This document shows positions 25,470-37,759 of a DNA stretch of 43,382 nt, one piece after another. The DNA lies in IMG/VR virus record IMGVR_UViG_3300039098_000030, positions 1 to 43,382 of that record. One strand, given 5' to 3'. Below the pieces are notes generated by a model. It was not told the DNA's origin. It made no database searches and was given only the letters and a program-made list of their open reading frames with translations. Position 1 is the stretch's first letter. The number at the start of each line of letters is the position of its first letter. Made by a program: the position numbers and the translations under genes. Source of the DNA: a virus.

Positions 25470-26483
25470 TTAGTAATTAAACAAACTATTACTATCAACC
25501 CCTAATTTTTTGAGTTCTTTAATTTTTTTATCTGAGTAAAAGTCTGTTGGTAATTTTGCATTTTTAGAAGAGTTACAACTTCTACACAATAGAACAGTAT
25601 TAGATAAAGTTAATCTTCCCCCTCTACTGAATGGTACATTGTGGTCTATTGTTAAATTATCAGTTCCATTACAGTTAAAGCACTTATTGTTAAATTTTTT
25701 AAATACTTCTTTTTTGTCTCTTGCACCAAAATTCTCTTTAATATCTGTTTTTCTTATTCTACCATTGTAACTTGCTCCGTTTACATAGTTTGGATGATTA
25801 GTACCACTAAATGCTTTAGATATTTTTTCTTTTCGTGATTCATCTGTCCTATAAAATTCGTGATGGCATTTTTGCGAACATACTTTTCTAAAAGGTCTAA
25901 CAATAGTAAACCCTTTTTTATTGTTAGATTTTCTATATTGAAACGCACAAAACAAAGTTTTACAAACTGCACAAATTAATACTTTATCTCTATTACTTCT
26001 ACATTCATCAGAACAATATATTTTTTTATATTTAAACTTATGTGATTCTCTAGTAACATCTTTGCCACAAATATCACATTTTTTTGTAAGATACTCTATC
26101 TTACTCCCATCTTTTTTTAATCCTTTTGAGTGATGTTCTAAATAACATTTTCTATCACAAAAAACATTTTTACTTTCAGTTCCATCCCTATTTTTACTCT
26201 TGGTTCTGGTTACATCTTTGTTACAATTTGCACATGGCTGAGACTTTATTTTTTTTGATGCTTTTGTTTGACAATCTTTGCCACAAAACTTTTGATTAAT
26301 ATGCTTTGATTTATATTCAATACTACAATACTCGCATATTTTTAATGGGGAATTTTCAGACTTCTTTTTATATTTGTTTTTATATTGACATTTTTTTGAA
26401 CAATATAATGCTCTTCCACTCTTTGTTTCAAATTTATCATTACAAACTAAACAGTTTTTTATAATCTTTGGAGAATTTTCCAT
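25470..26483 (-). CDS. Multi-zinc-finger HNH homing endonuclease
   Basis: A 337-aa protein. Five tandem zinc modules carry CxxC...CxxxC at Cys 11/14/28/32, 50/53/67/71, 84/87/109/113, 136/139/157/161 and 171/174/202/206. A NUMOD3-like segment follows (KISKAFSGTNHPNY, about 221-233). The C-terminal HNH domain has CFNC, IDHNVPFSRGG and LCRSCNSSKN (268-309). The fingers probably read a long DNA target. It sits between the minor head and scaffold genes as an inserted gene with its own promoter and leader, so it is likely a free-standing homing enzyme. Confidence 0.88.
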   Translation of the reverse strand: MENSPKIIKNCLVCNDKFETKSGRALYCSKKCQYKNKYKKKSENSPLKICEYCSIEYKSKHINQKFCGKDCQTKASKKIKSQPCANCNKDVTRTKSKNRDGTESKNVFCDRKCYLEHHSKGLKKDGSKIEYLTKKCDICGKDVTRESHKFKYKKIYCSDECRSNRDKVLICAVCKTLFCAFQYRKSNNKKGFTIVRPFRKVCSQKCHHEFYRTDESRKEKISKAFSGTNHPNYVNGASYNGRIRKTDIKENFGARDKKEVFKKFNNKCFNCNGTDNLTIDHNVPFSRGGRLTLSNTVLLCRSCNSSKNAKLPTDFYSDKKIKELKKLGVDSNSLFNY

Positions 26484-32444: not shown

Positions 32445-33377
32445 AGCTACAGAAATATTAGTAATATTCCCATCTAAATAGCTTATTGTTTTAATTATTG
32501 ATTGATTAGAGATATTATTTGTGATTGTTACTGTTTCAATGTTTCCATCACTATAAAGTATTTCTTTAGTGAAGAGTTTGGTTGTTTTGGTATCGTTTAT
32601 ATATACATTAATTTGAGTTATATTTCCATCAACATAAATTAATTCAGAGTATGAAGTTTTGTAAGTGCTATTAAACATATGCAATAATTCATCGGATGAT
32701 ACATGAGAGTCGTATTTTGAGGTGTCTATTGAACCGCCACCACCACCGACTAAAACCTTTTGTTTAGGGAGTTTGATTTTATCTTCTGTATCGTCTGAAT
32801 ATGTGATTATTAGATAGTCATTTTTAATTTCAGCTTTGACTATGCCTCGACCGTCTTCGCCATCGATTCCATCACGACCATCTTTACCTTTTACACTTTT
32901 ACCATCATCACCTTTTAATCTATCAAAATTATCATCTATCCAAAGTGATAAAGCATTAGATATTTGTAAGTCTGTAACTTCCTTTGCATCTCTGCCATCA
33001 CGACCTTTTGGAACTTGTATATTTTTGACTGCTTGTAATACTTCACTCTTTATTTTTTCCGTTTCTAAATTTCTTTGTTTGACTAACTTGTTTATTTCTG
33101 CTTTTAATAGTGCTTTTGCAACTACACTATCGTAGTCTTTACCATCTTTACCGTTTATTGCAATAGGTAGTTTTTTGATTTCTGTTTGAATTGTTTTATA
33201 TATCTGAACATTTAAACTATCAATTCTTTCATGTAAAAGCTTTTTTTCTTTATCATAATCATTTTCAAAACTATTTATTTCACTCTTTGTTTCATCTACA
33301 TCGCTCTCTAGGTCTTTTAGTGATTGATTAAGTACCGATATGGCTTCAATGAGTGATACAAGTAATTCTGAATCCAT
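32442..33377 (-). CDS. Coiled-coil and collagen-like virion protein
   Basis: A 311-aa protein: a coiled coil at about 10-70, a short G-K-D-G-K-D stretch near 75, a second coil at 85-120, and Gly-X-Y repeats (GRDGRDAK, GKSVKGKDGRDGIDGEDGRG, about 125-175). A GGGGGS hinge and three similar C-terminal repeats containing YxDGNI (about 245-310) follow. The layout implies a trimeric fibre, perhaps on the head, as the gene follows the portal. Gly-X-Y content is rich in Lys-Asp pairs, which stabilise bacterial collagens. Confidence 0.72.
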   Translation of the reverse strand: MDSELLVSLIEAISVLNQSLKDLESDVDETKSEINSFENDYDKEKKLLHERIDSLNVQIYKTIQTEIKKLPIAINGKDGKDYDSVVAKALLKAEINKLVKQRNLETEKIKSEVLQAVKNIQVPKGRDGRDAKEVTDLQISNALSLWIDDNFDRLKGDDGKSVKGKDGRDGIDGEDGRGIVKAEIKNDYLIITYSDDTEDKIKLPKQKVLVGGGGGSIDTSKYDSHVSSDELLHMFNSTYKTSYSELIYVDGNITQINVYINDTKTTKLFTKEILYSDGNIETVTITNNISNQSIIKTISYLDGNITNISVA

Positions 33378-34846
33378 TAGATACCCATCTTCTCTCTAAT
33401 TGATTGTAGGGTGCTTTTGTCGGTTGATTTGTTTGTAGCTTTAATCGGACTCTCTGTTAATGTAGGTGTAGCTGTTTGTATCTCGGTCTGCTGTTCATCA
33501 AAAGTCTTAGTCTCTTCTATAAGTTCACCATTTTTAAGATTAAAGAATAAGTCCTGAGAACTAATCGCACCACTAAGCCATGATGTAGTTAATGCTGTGA
33601 TTGTTTGTGAGTCCATTATTGTTAAATGATAATCAGTATTTAGTTTATAAGTTACTTTATCGCCTGTACCTACCCACTCACTCATAATTATAAGAGCTTT
33701 TTGAATACCACGACTTGCTGTATCTGCTAAAGATATTAGTGAAGCATTTTGTCCACTTGTTCGCATAGCTACCGTGTTTTCAGACTCAGCTGCTCTTTTA
33801 TCCATTTGTAGCATTGAACTACCTAATACTACCATTGACTCTTTAAGGTCTGCATTTTCTTCTCTGTACTGTGGTAAAGTTTTACCCTCTATTTCCATAT
33901 ATTCTGCGTGACCTTGTGGATTCGCAAAACCTTTTACATTCGTAGTACCTACTTTAAATGTACCCTCTACTTCTTTAGGTTGGACACCCCAAAGTATAGG
34001 AGTTGGTGCTGCGAAGTGTAAGGTATGTCTATAATCAACTTTAAGTGCAAATTGACTAACATTTACCTCTGATAAATCATATAGTGGGCTTTTTGCTGGT
34101 GTTAATGTAAGTGAAACTGGTGTGATTGATATAAAAGGGATTTCTGTTAAAGATTCTCCATTCATTTTAGGTAAAAAAGTTTGAGTAATTGTATATTCTC
34201 CACTCTTTTTTCCATCACTTTCGCCCTCTTCAAATATTCTAACCGTGTAAATTCCATCATCTAAAGTAAGAACTCTATATATATCCTCTTCTTTATTTGT
34301 GAACTCATCTACCCATTTGTCTTTTGATTCTTTTAAAACTACCATTGTTAAAACTTGACGATTGTTTATAGTCTCATATTTCCAGTTGATGATTGATTCA
34401 GTTGGATATGACTTAATGTATGGTCTTATGTTTAACTGTTCCACATCGGCAGCACTAAGCCCCTCCGTATCTACACTAGCCATATCCACAAGTAACCCAA
34501 CTCTACCAACTGAAATAAGTTCATCTACTGTATCTTGAGCTAAATCCATTAAAGTTTTATCTGCTAAATCTATGTTATCAAAGAGAGTTTCTAATGTTGA
34601 TGGTGCTTCGATTGTAGGTTTTTTACTAAAGATTAAGCCACTAAGTCCATCTAATGTTCTTGCTACAAAGTTCTCAAAAGGTGGTCTGTTTTTATAGTCT
34701 TCATATTCTTGAGTATCAAAGCTTGATAATGTTGGTACATATTTAACACCTTTTGATTTAACCTGCTCACTACCACTTATAGCATCTCTTACCATGCTCC
34801 ATTGGTTTAGTTTTGCATCATAAAGTTTGTGAGTAGTGTTTACCAT
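33377..34846 (-). CDS. Portal protein, DUF4055 family
   Basis: A 489-aa protein that fits DUF4055: an N-terminal W-x-x-V/M-RD-A-x-x-G segment, PPFENFVARTLDGLSGLIFSKKP (about 54-76) and a central LISVGRVGLLVDM. A long helical C-terminal half carries RAAESENTVAMRTSGQNASL. This family is the dodecameric portal at the capsid vertex that drives DNA packaging. It follows the terminase genes, with the tRNA and ribozyme between, and has its own promoter. Confidence 0.9.
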   Translation of the reverse strand: MVNTTHKLYDAKLNQWSMVRDAISGSEQVKSKGVKYVPTLSSFDTQEYEDYKNRPPFENFVARTLDGLSGLIFSKKPTIEAPSTLETLFDNIDLADKTLMDLAQDTVDELISVGRVGLLVDMASVDTEGLSAADVEQLNIRPYIKSYPTESIINWKYETINNRQVLTMVVLKESKDKWVDEFTNKEEDIYRVLTLDDGIYTVRIFEEGESDGKKSGEYTITQTFLPKMNGESLTEIPFISITPVSLTLTPAKSPLYDLSEVNVSQFALKVDYRHTLHFAAPTPILWGVQPKEVEGTFKVGTTNVKGFANPQGHAEYMEIEGKTLPQYREENADLKESMVVLGSSMLQMDKRAAESENTVAMRTSGQNASLISLADTASRGIQKALIIMSEWVGTGDKVTYKLNTDYHLTIMDSQTITALTTSWLSGAISSQDLFFNLKNGELIEETKTFDEQQTEIQTATPTLTESPIKATNKSTDKSTLQSIREKMGI

Positions 34847-34906: not shown

Positions 34907-34991
34907 TGGAGGAAGATAAGAGAATCGAACTCTTTACTGTTTTACCAGCCAGTCCTTAGCAAGGACTTTATCTACCTTAGATGTATCTTCC
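34907..34991 (-). tRNA. tRNA-Ser(GCU)
   Basis: The 85-nt cloverleaf has acceptor GGAAGAT/ATCTTCC (7 bp) and anticodon arm AGTCC-TTGCTAA-GGACT with anticodon GCT. A long variable arm with CTG/CAG stem, T arm AAGAG-TTCGATT-CTCTT and encoded CCA follow. The long variable arm supports Ser (AGC/AGU codons). Oddities are a short D loop and discriminator T instead of the usual G of Ser tRNAs. It lies between the hammerhead ribozyme and the portal promoter. Confidence 0.85.
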
Positions 34992-35020: not shown

Positions 35021-35048
35021 AGTGAGTTGTCTAGGTCTCCAGTTATTC

Positions 35049-35124
35049 CCCTACTTGGGAGACTCCACGGTACAAATTAATGTTTCGGATTTAAAATCCT
35101 CGTCAGCCGTGCTGTGGTGTAGGG
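35049..35124 (-). ncRNA. Type I hammerhead ribozyme
   Basis: On the minus strand: stem I outer helix CCCTAC/GTAGGG (35119-35124 with 35049-35054), an internal loop, then stem I inner helix CACGG/CCGTG (35107-35111 with 35066-35070). The core is CTGACGA (35100-35106), stem II GGATT-TTA-AATCC (35087-35099), GAAA (35083-35086), stem III ACA/TGT with a 6-nt loop, and cleavage triplet GTA. Every conserved hammerhead position is present (C3 to A9, G12 to A15.1, U16.1, H17 = A). Predicted cut is between 35071 and 35070. Stem I carries the open ends, hence type I. Confidence 0.85.
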
Positions 35125-35170
35125 CTAGATGCTTCAAATGTCAACAACTCTGTGAAGCCCACGGATTAAC

Positions 35171-35176
35171 ATTATA
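35171..35176 (-). promoter_or_regulatory. Promoter of ribozyme-tRNA transcript
   Basis: The minus-strand TATAAT is preceded by a T-rich tract and TTGCTT about 15 nt upstream. A start near 35166 would give an RNA that opens with a GGGCTTCA...TGAAGC...GCCC hairpin, then the hammerhead, then tRNA-Ser, reading into the portal gene. Confidence 0.6.
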
Positions 35177-35256: not shown

Positions 35257-36540
35257 CTAAATACCACTCATTTTTATATCAAATGTTGATACAACAACTG
35301 GGTATAATCTACCAACAACATAGCCAAATGCGTCAGTAAAATCATCCTGAGCACCACCTTTATGGTTAGTAAACTTCTCTGGTTGTCCACGCTCGTCATA
35401 TGCGTGTACTTGTAAACTCTCATTAGTCTTTTGAGCTGTTATCGGATTGACTAAAAGAGTATTTGACATAAGTTTTCTATTACAAGCATTGTACCTTGTA
35501 GCAGTTGCTCCATTTTCAGTAGGTACATTACAGTAATATCCAGCTTGTTTAAGCATATCAATATCAGTCACGGTTGAGTTAGTACTACGATTCCCACCAC
35601 TAACATCGGGATATAAGATTAAATCGTGATTAAAGTATCTATTTTGAAGTTCTTGTATAATCATTTCAGTATCGTACACTACAAATTCATCTACAATATG
35701 TGCTATTCCTTTATTATCTTCTCCTAAAACGACACCAACACTTCCCCCAATATTAAAATCTAATCCTATATGTAAAGTAACAAAATCATCTACTGTTTTA
35801 TCTGATATGTGTACCTTATAGTCATACCTATGATGGATTATATTATTGTTTAAAACACCCCACTCATTAAGTGCGTAGATTCTATATTGTTGATAATCGT
35901 ATCGCTCCATATCTCTTAAAACTTCCCTATCCTCTTCGGGTAGTTTAGGATTATCTAAAAATGTAGTTTCAATAATATCTAAGTTTTTAGGTGGATTATC
36001 AAAGAACCTAGTCTTTAACCAATGAAGATGAGAAATAGGATTGAACGAAATATGTATCTGTTTGTAGTGTGGTAAATTCCCTCTAAGTCGTCTATCTAAC
36101 TCATTAAAGTCCTTTTCATCAAGTTCACTAGCCTCTTCAATCCATACAGAGGTTATTTTTTCTATTGATTTAAGTTTCTCAGGATTATCAACTCCCATAA
36201 ATAAGATACCGTTTTGAGTTGCTTTGTGTACTATCTTCATAGGGCTTTCAGTTATGTGAAACTTTGACTCAACACCCCACGAATAAATATAATCTTTGAA
36301 TAGTTGAAATACTGAGGCTTTCATAGTGTCTTTTACTTTACGGATTACTAAGTACCTATGACCTTTTTGATATATGATTCTATAGAGTATCTTTTGTGCA
36401 ACAAATCTACTCTTACCACTTCCAGCACCACCCTTATACACATCATACCGTGCTTCACTTCTAAATTTTTCTCTATAAACTGGCAATACTGTTTTGTTTA
36501 GTACATTTGACATATCAATATCAGGTTTATATACACTCAT
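35257..36540 (-). CDS. terL: Terminase large subunit
   Basis: A 427-aa protein with a PBSX-type layout. The ATPase carries YKGGAGSGKSRF (Walker A, about 36-47) and VWIEEASEL (Walker B with catalytic Glu, about 130-138). The nuclease domain has acidic clusters at LDFNIGG (about 248), LYPDVSGG (about 303) and DDFTDAFGYV (about 400). It cuts and pumps concatemeric DNA into proheads. It overlaps terS by 1 bp and ends in TAG. A GTGGTA/TACCAC hairpin surrounds that stop codon. Confidence 0.95.
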   Translation of the reverse strand: MSVYKPDIDMSNVLNKTVLPVYREKFRSEARYDVYKGGAGSGKSRFVAQKILYRIIYQKGHRYLVIRKVKDTMKASVFQLFKDYIYSWGVESKFHITESPMKIVHKATQNGILFMGVDNPEKLKSIEKITSVWIEEASELDEKDFNELDRRLRGNLPHYKQIHISFNPISHLHWLKTRFFDNPPKNLDIIETTFLDNPKLPEEDREVLRDMERYDYQQYRIYALNEWGVLNNNIIHHRYDYKVHISDKTVDDFVTLHIGLDFNIGGSVGVVLGEDNKGIAHIVDEFVVYDTEMIIQELQNRYFNHDLILYPDVSGGNRSTNSTVTDIDMLKQAGYYCNVPTENGATATRYNACNRKLMSNTLLVNPITAQKTNESLQVHAYDERGQPEKFTNHKGGAQDDFTDAFGYVVGRLYPVVVSTFDIKMSGI

Positions 36541-37105: not shown

Positions 37106-37759
37106 TTATATCCTTGCATTAAACTTTATACCATTAAATACTAGTGACTGCTCAAGATACTTTATATAGTCTTTATCATTAAGCCATTTATCTTTTCTTA
37201 GGAAGTCTAAGTGTTCATCAAGTGTTAAATAATAGTCGTGTAGTTCTCTATTGCTTCCAATTTCTATTATTTTTAACATATTTTTAGCTGTTAAATCAAA
37301 CCACTCTCCTGATAATCTCTTATTTTTAAAGGTCTTATGTAGTTCTGATTCTAAATTTATCGCATCCTTTACACTAAAGCTTGTAATTAAATCTATGTCG
37401 AATGGTATTTTTACTTCAAACCTTTTTAGTCTCTCTTTGATACTATTTGCTTTACCTATCTTATACTTAGTCGTGCCGTTATGTGTTCCTGATATTACAT
37501 ATACATAATTGAATTTATAAATCTCTGCAATAGCAAAAAACTTAACTGCCTCAATTACATATATATGCTTATCTGCTAACTCAAACATATTCTCTGCCCA
37601 TCTATTAGACCAAAAGGCTACTCCACCCTCTCTTTTGTCTACTAGTTCATTGAACAGCTTATATTGTTTTACTATATCATAGAATACAACTTTTGTTAAG
37701 TCTGTTTTATTGTTTAGTCTGCAATGGTAAAATGGTTTTTTTAATTTGTGTGATTTCAT
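37106..37759 (-). CDS. GIY-YIG nuclease-like protein (T5orf172/MUG113 type)
   Basis: A 217-aa protein. Residues about 84-160 match the T5orf172/MUG113 branch of the GIY-YIG superfamily: YVYVISGT, YKIGKA, IKERLKRF, ESELHKTFKNKR and GEWFDL. The N-terminal 80 residues have no recognised domain; the C-terminal 55 are helical and may bind DNA. It is a solo gene with its own promoter and hairpin leader between small early genes and terS, so a mobile or homing gene is plausible. Confidence 0.8.
   Translation of the reverse strand: MKSHKLKKPFYHCRLNNKTDLTKVVFYDIVKQYKLFNELVDKREGGVAFWSNRWAENMFELADKHIYVIEAVKFFAIAEIYKFNYVYVISGTHNGTTKYKIGKANSIKERLKRFEVKIPFDIDLITSFSVKDAINLESELHKTFKNKRLSGEWFDLTAKNMLKIIEIGSNRELHDYYLTLDEHLDFLRKDKWLNDKDYIKYLEQSLVFNGIKFNARI

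Follow-up and report, generated by a model that had tools for sequence, protein, structure and literature searches.

A phage RNA family with an embedded hammerhead ribozyme and two circularly permuted layouts

Hammerhead ribozymes are known from phages and prophages, where they are often clustered around single genes (Perreault et al. 2011, PMC3088659), and the published surveys consulted leave open what purpose bacterial and phage hammerheads serve. The sequence studied here is a 43,382-nucleotide viral genome sequence (IMG/VR record IMGVR_UViG_3300039098_000030), the whole of which we call the window. An earlier note on this DNA had placed a hammerhead between the terminase large subunit gene and a tRNA-Ser gene, and had read it as a free-standing processing site that separates the tRNA, and perhaps the portal message, from the RNA upstream. 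Is there a hammerhead at this locus, and is cutting off its neighbors what it is for? Our analysis supports that interpretation in part. The hammerhead is there, but it forms part of a larger conserved RNA, designated X, with two pseudoknots that the earlier note does not mention, and its position among the terminase, tRNA, and portal genes is incidental.

Read from the sequence, positions 35111-35066 of the minus strand form a complete type I hammerhead, CACGG-CTGACGA-GGATT-TTA-AATCC-GAAA-CATTAATTTGT-A-CCGTG, and every hammerhead element that the earlier note had listed was found in its place on the minus strand. All core positions agree with the hammerhead class (C3-A9, with C as N7; G12-A14; A15.1-U16.1; A as H17), stems I, II, and III comprise 5, 5, and 3 bp, and all helices in the window are intact (Table 1). 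A strict core pattern matches the window once and none of 100 shuffles, while a lenient descriptor, which requires stems of 5/5/3 pairs or more and permits G-U pairs and long loops, gave a mean of 0.0025 matches per shuffled window of the same composition, or about 1 in 400. By itself, the single window sequence is suggestive but not conclusive evidence for a hammerhead. Thus, the very low odds of a chance match that had been claimed do not hold for a lone sequence in a scan of many windows; the family evidence described below answers this doubt. Rfam hammerhead models had been proposed as a check, with a miss to count against the ribozyme, and none matches the window, either at gathering score or at E <= 10. 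We attribute this to short stems and odd flanks. The gathering threshold is a database threshold and not a biochemical requirement, and a clear sister locus (L236), which scores best among the relatives, reaches only 14.5 bits with Rfam Hammerhead_3. When 91 nt are folded in isolation, the lowest-energy structure (-19.2 kcal/mol) is not the hammerhead (-17.4 kcal/mol), in a fold model that covers neither pseudoknots nor tertiary contacts.

Table 1. Coordinates of RNA X, its parts, and its surroundings in the window
Feature	Position	Strand	Basis or remark
Terminase large subunit	35257..36540	minus	PHROG 3717, E 1.8e-68
TATAAT, -10-like hexamer, 6 nt upstream of the first conserved motif of X	35171..35176	minus	sequence
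Structured and conserved RNA X (form A), including the hammerhead, ~140 nt	35024..35164	minus	model R1 and covariation
CCGTGGG, 5' repeat of the predicted product end CCGTGGAG	35158..35164	minus	alternative partner of stem I strand CACGG
Hairpin P2, GCTTCA (35158-35153) / TGAAGC (35136-35131)	35131..35158	minus	100% of cells paired, 4/5 pairs covary
PK2 5' strand GAGTTGTT, in P2 loop	35143..35150	minus	7/7 pairs covary with 35031-35024
CATCTAG (invariant motif CATCTNG)	35125..35131	minus	invariant alignment columns
P3 5' strand CCCTAC	35119..35124	minus	99.2% paired with 35054-35049, 5/6 pairs covary
Hammerhead stem I 5' strand CACGG	35107..35111	minus	sequence and family alignment
Hammerhead core CTGACGA (35106-35100), stem II GGATT/AATCC (35099-35095/35091-35087), GAAA (35086-35083)	35083..35106	minus	core intact in 57/62 form A, 21/21 form B
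Stem III ACA-TTAATT-TGT (strands 35083-35081/35074-35072) and cleavage triplet GTA (A17 at 35071)	35071..35083	minus	predicted cut between 35071 and 35070
CCGTGGAG, 3' strand of stem I (CCGTG, 35070-35066, partner of CACGG); the 3' product is predicted to begin here with a 5'-OH	35063..35070	minus	kept even in hammerhead-less members
PK1 5' strand GTCTCC	35058..35063	minus	100% paired with 35040-35035, 5/6 pairs covary
P3 3' strand GTAGGG	35049..35054	minus	covariation
GAATAAC, pseudoknot loop 3, spans P3	35042..35048	minus	invariant alignment columns
PK1 3' strand GGAGAC	35035..35040	minus	covariation
PK2 3' strand GACAACTC	35024..35031	minus	covariation
tRNA-Ser (GCT), beginning 32 nt downstream of X	34907..34991	minus	ARAGORN
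Portal protein	33377..34846	minus	PHROG 145, E 3e-113

A sensitive blastn search of phage genomes matched exactly this region in Arthrobacter phages Constance and Karkharias and in Pectobacterium and Dickeya phages, and pattern scans of IMG/VR returned large numbers of loci, with counts that are lower bounds for two of the scans. Besides the ribozyme, the family loci share CATCTNG upstream (downstream in a second layout, form B) and GGGAATAACTGG downstream. After removal of duplicates, at least 85 distinct phage or prophage loci are members. An initial pattern that demanded an exact hammerhead and loops of set length had yielded four loci in IMG/VR that looked like chance matches inside genes, and it was abandoned. 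Most of 29 pattern matches in cellular genomes likewise look like chance within genes, the clear cases being Pseudomonas nitroreducens, Bordetella trematum, and a Rhodobacteraceae MAG. A query with the portal found no relatives, and PaP3, which has a published hammerhead, was rejected as a member; its genome lacks the X motifs and its match to the model is not convincing. A 147-position covariance model (R1), built from 42 members with the window excluded, matches positions 35164-35019 with 129.2 bits (E 2.7e-34), which is the sole R1 match in the window's record and removes the doubt about chance.

Judged from sequence comparison, window positions 35164-35024 on the minus strand belong to an uncatalogued family of phage RNAs. 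X folds into the hairpin P2, an H-type pseudoknot formed by P3 and PK1 with the invariant loop GAATAAC, and a second, long-range pseudoknot, PK2, that connects the P2 loop to the 3' side. In most members, the hammerhead occupies loop 1 of the P3/PK1 pseudoknot. The motifs CATCTNG and NCGTGGG are invariant, and a second copy of the latter, NCGYGGAG, directly follows the predicted cut. The window has the whole NCGTGGG-P2/PK2-CATCTNG-P3/PK1-GAATAAC architecture, with every helix present. Across 43 distinct sequences, 92.9% of cells are paired over 37 pairs, 28 pairs are changed on both sides, and the covariation score is 0.641, compared with 0.164 ± 0.010 in shuffles and no more than 0.106 for slid partners. 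Covariation in related phages, which had been suggested as a check on stems I and II, is observed for both stems in these sequences; the closing pairs of stem III are invariant. The innermost pair of stem I varies (G-C, C-G, A-U, U-G), yet it is paired in 43 of 43. Two structural details in the earlier note are read differently here. The outer CCCTAC/GTAGGG pairing is present, but it is helix P3 of X rather than an outer stem I, and the internal loop of stem I, where the note placed tertiary contacts, holds one strand of the 6-bp PK1, whose partner lies downstream.

As a control for bias, members were also gathered through the X motifs alone, ignoring the ribozyme. The hammerhead core is intact in 78 of the 83 members picked in this way: 57 of 62 distinct form A loci with room for a hammerhead, the five exceptions being degenerate or without it, and all 21 distinct form B loci. 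The cleavage triplets that could be parsed in the family are GTC (32), GTA (15), and GTT (2), and G never occurs at position 17. Retention of the core together with the absence of G17 suggests that catalysis is under selection. Positions 10.1 and 11.1 (columns 75 and 97 of alignment A1) are non-standard in 24 of 73 family hammerheads (A.A in 13, U.U in 10, C.A in one; for example L134, L136, L148, and L161), the core being otherwise perfect, and the window itself has G-C; a published survey treated mismatches at 10.1/11.1 as disqualifying (PMC3088659). On this comparative evidence, the hammerhead in the window is real and under selection, and it belongs to the hammerhead class by anatomy and selection, with cleavage as a prediction.

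Form B arranges the same parts in the order hammerhead, PK1, P3 3' strand, GAATAAC, PK1 3' strand, PK2 3' strand, closing hairpin, NCGTGGG, P2, CATCTNG, and P3 5' strand. The form A model gives two matches at each form B locus, with the halves in reversed order, indicating that the two forms are circular permutations of each other. Form A has a closed connection between P3 and stem I and an open outer end, and the opposite is true of form B; in both, the predicted break precedes NCGYGGAG. Cleavage of form B would free the 5' end of X by removing a 5' leader and cleavage of form A would nick X, and we take form B as support for the idea that a break at this point, and not the order of the pieces, may be what matters. 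The first base is shared by NCGTGGG and NCGYGGAG in 82 of 85 members (C, G, or T in two), compared with 39.8 expected and a maximum of 55 in 10,000 shuffles, a contrast that relatedness inflates. This identity indicates that NCGTG can pair with the 5' strand of stem I in place of the product strand, and the alternative helix is 90.5% paired, with 22 cells changed on both sides. Hammerhead-less members also keep both repeats identical. Strand exchange alone leaves that identity unexplained, and another explanation is possible; the strand-exchange step draws mainly on one covarying base, and another contact could underlie it.

X also exists without a working hammerhead. In ten IMG/VR loci (L275-L284) and Microcystis phage Mwe-JY26, a short linker takes the place of the hammerhead, and the X helices and CCGYGGAG/GCGYGGAG are retained. 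Mycobacterium phage Gaia retains X with a decayed hammerhead core, TTGATAA. On Acinetobacter pittii plasmid p1_005046 (L300, positions 2773-2904), a form B X follows a tRNA-like sequence and has AAAA in place of GAAA, so its hammerhead is probably dead; form B X is found on 10 further Acinetobacter plasmids, and the plasmid sizes are ~100-160 kb. The persistence of X without the hammerhead suggests that X has a function of its own, for which the hammerhead is frequent but dispensable. At one further locus (L292, 9489-9578, minus strand), the place of the hammerhead ahead of GCGCGGAG is taken by an unrelated stem-loop, TAAAGAGCTAACGCAGGCAACGCCTCGAAAGAGGTA, which could be another cleaving motif or a wreck.

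In the annotated examples inspected, X is intergenic and unannotated, with small overlapping hypothetical ORFs in some records, and its surroundings vary widely. It lies near the right end of the genome in Arthrobacter phage Constance, beside tRNA-Met and head genes in Pectobacterium phage Pappous, after tRNA-Ser in Gaia, and among arrayed tRNA genes in Mwe-JY26. Capsid and tail genes flank it in Enterobacter podophage SDFMU_EhYP, as do portal-side and terminase genes in a prophage of E. coli that is present in 15 of 5426 E. coli genomes; an Aquitalea plasmid that carries terminase genes also bears X. A same-strand tRNA lies within 300 nt of X at 23 of 85 loci, compared with 6.6 expected, and within 40 nt at 17. 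Where a tRNA abuts X, on either side, its end adjoins the first part of X or the ribozyme leader and not the cut site. The motif had been expected at the same position in close relatives, but two terminase relatives (L001 and L002, 67-69% identity) have neither the ribozyme nor the tRNA there. The varied neighbors and this absence indicate that cutting off the tRNA or portal message, the purpose proposed in the earlier note, is not the shared purpose of X.

The -10-like TATAAT upstream of X in the window has a weak -35 and is not listed by a consensus promoter scan; we infer a transcription start just before CCGTGGG. A dedicated promoter was rejected as a family trait, a perfect TATAAT at that spacing being found in the window only, and a terminator follows X in only 6 of 66 cases. 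Between X and tRNA-Ser, at 35020-34995 on the minus strand, the window has an AT-rich strong hairpin, TCTATAAAG...CTTTATAGA, without a T-run. The X of the E. coli prophage and that of SDFMU_EhYP are 98.5% identical over 205 nt, and Enterobacter phage phiKDA1 (L296) has no X at the site equivalent to that in SDFMU_EhYP. Near-identical copies and this absence suggest that X moves between phages. At about 710-830 in phiKDA1, the outer hairpin strands ACAACAGGTAAGAGCA and TGCTCTTTCCGTTGT are common with SDFMU_EhYP and a different insert replaces X. ORFs that resemble HNH and homing endonucleases by PHROGs matches adjoin the head and terminase genes of the window (25470-26483 and 37106-37759).

The best explanation, and one that we consider likely, is that X is an RNA that is nicked by its own embedded hammerhead, undergoes strand exchange, and then acts in trans. 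Hammerhead cleavage leaves a 2',3'-cyclic phosphate and a 5'-OH. By this chemistry, the transcript would cut itself before CCGTGGAG, leaving the cyclic phosphate on the 5' piece and the 5'-OH on CCGTGGAG, so that the 3' piece of the window transcript is predicted to begin CCGUGGAG. P3 (6 bp) and PK2 (8 bp) would hold the pieces together, giving a nicked yet folded X. Less surely, the upstream CCGTGGG might then pair with the freed CACGG, which would disassemble the ribozyme and make the cut one-way. During infection, X would then act in trans; the frequent tRNA neighbors prompt the guess that its role is close to translation or to the fate of tRNAs.

Cleavage might instead serve local processing, in which the hammerhead cuts the terL-tRNA-portal transcript and thereby releases or stabilizes tRNA-Ser, the portal mRNA, or both. 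Phage ribozymes that process tRNAs are known (PMC10879173), tRNA-Ser closely follows X in the window, and tRNAs adjoin X above expectation. However, 62 of the 85 members have no same-strand tRNA within 300 nt in the sequence examined, the tRNA ends that abut X lie away from the cut site, the cut in the window would leave a 79-nt leader on the tRNA, and hammerhead-less X also lies beside tRNAs (L276, L279). We regard local processing as very unlikely, and tRNA maturation as a shared function was rejected on the distance of the cut from the window's only tRNA and from tRNA ends elsewhere. An allosteric ribozyme, in which X senses a small molecule, a tRNA, or a protein and gates the choice of the stem I strand between CCGTGGG and CCGTGGAG, would fit a compact, pseudoknotted RNA with invariant unpaired motifs and two conserved, mutually exclusive partners for that strand. 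Such a device seems unlikely for X, whose neighboring genes vary among phages as those of a cis-regulator would not, and which remains where the ribozyme is absent.

X might also be a selfish mobile RNA of the retrozyme or viroid kind, its hammerhead making circular or unit-length RNA. The near-identical copies shared by the E. coli prophage and the podophage SDFMU_EhYP, the lack of X at the equivalent phiKDA1 site, and the existence of two circular permutants point that way, but a short pattern found X at one place per record in most of 17 records checked, one ribozyme per copy yields no unit-length monomer, no flanking direct repeats are shown, and hammerhead-less members persist, which together make a selfish element highly improbable. 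Finally, the missing Rfam match and the rate at which the lenient descriptor matches shuffled windows could be taken to mean that the window holds a chance resemblance or a decayed remnant. We give this practically no credence: the match to the window-free model is strong, the helices are intact, the core is unchanged, and chance is already refuted. Self-nicking followed by strand exchange and action in trans is therefore the reading that we prefer. On its fullest version, that X is an undescribed class of trans-acting phage RNA that nicks itself by a hammerhead, exchanges strands, occurs in two permuted layouts, has spread between unrelated phages, and perhaps acts on tRNAs or translation, we are evenly divided.

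Because the host molecule of the ribozyme is fixed and conserved, and the cut site lies inside a larger fold, the purpose of the ribozyme is testable. X with an intact hammerhead, with a dead one, and naturally without one form a comparable set, and permuted genes for one pseudoknotted RNA are a natural experiment on RNA topology. Common to phages of Proteobacteria, Actinobacteria, and Cyanobacteria and enriched near tRNA genes, X is a candidate for involvement in host takeover.

Among the members scanned, no Rfam 15 model matches X, and the literature search found no description of it, supplementary files, preprints, and subscription papers being outside its scope, so that a prior description is possible; a search of literature text for the literal GGGAAUAACUGG matched only unrelated plant reference-gene papers. 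X thus appears to be an unannotated family, carried by many unrelated phages, that is not found in the databases and literature searched. Type I hammerheads (RF00163, with phage and prophage examples in PMC3088659) share with X the core residues, three helices, an open stem I, a GUH triplet, the location in phages and prophages, and a pseudoknot near stem I; tertiary pseudoknots of this kind were already known for hammerheads. Unlike RF00163 hammerheads, that of X is embedded in a ~140-nt RNA that survives without it, falls below every Rfam hammerhead threshold, and in a third of relatives has A.A or U.U at 10.1/11.1. X is usually present once per genome, whereas the hammerheads of PMC3088659 are clustered and flank single genes. 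Five IMG/VR phage contigs (L032, L054, L092, L117, L065) each contain several hammerheads at separate places, many of them shortly before a ribosome-binding site and start codon, and resemble the hammerhead clusters that Perreault et al. 2011 describe in prophages.

Theta ribozymes, which are HDV-like and located at the 3' ends of phage tRNAs (PMC10879173), resemble X in being self-cleaving-type ribozymes beside phage tRNA genes, cleavage being predicted in the case of X. Theta ribozymes cut within 5 nt of the tRNA 3' end, unlike X, most loci of which have no adjacent tRNA; in the window, 79 nt separate the predicted cut from the 5' end of the only tRNA, which is downstream of it. The folds differ as well: no Rfam HDV-like model matches the window, whose fold is a hammerhead plus an H-type pseudoknot. 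The large phage RNAs GOLLD and ROOL, known near tRNA islands (PMC12286853), are, like X, structured, pseudoknotted phage or prophage RNAs often located near tRNA islands. They are several times larger (many GOLLD exceed 800 nt) and are not reported to contain a hammerhead, and their Rfam models do not match X. Retrozymes and hammerhead circular RNAs (PMC7761336) likewise place a type I hammerhead inside a small mobile RNA, but X has one hammerhead per copy rather than two cut sites or a tandem or unit-length arrangement, lies in dsDNA phage genomes, and comes with no evidence of circles. The non-circularly permuted hammerheads of types SGC and CSG (PMC10085705) share with X a rearranged, hammerhead-containing RNA with multiple pseudoknots; there it is the ribozyme that is rearranged, whereas the hammerhead in X retains the order C-G-S and the permutation affects the host RNA that surrounds it.
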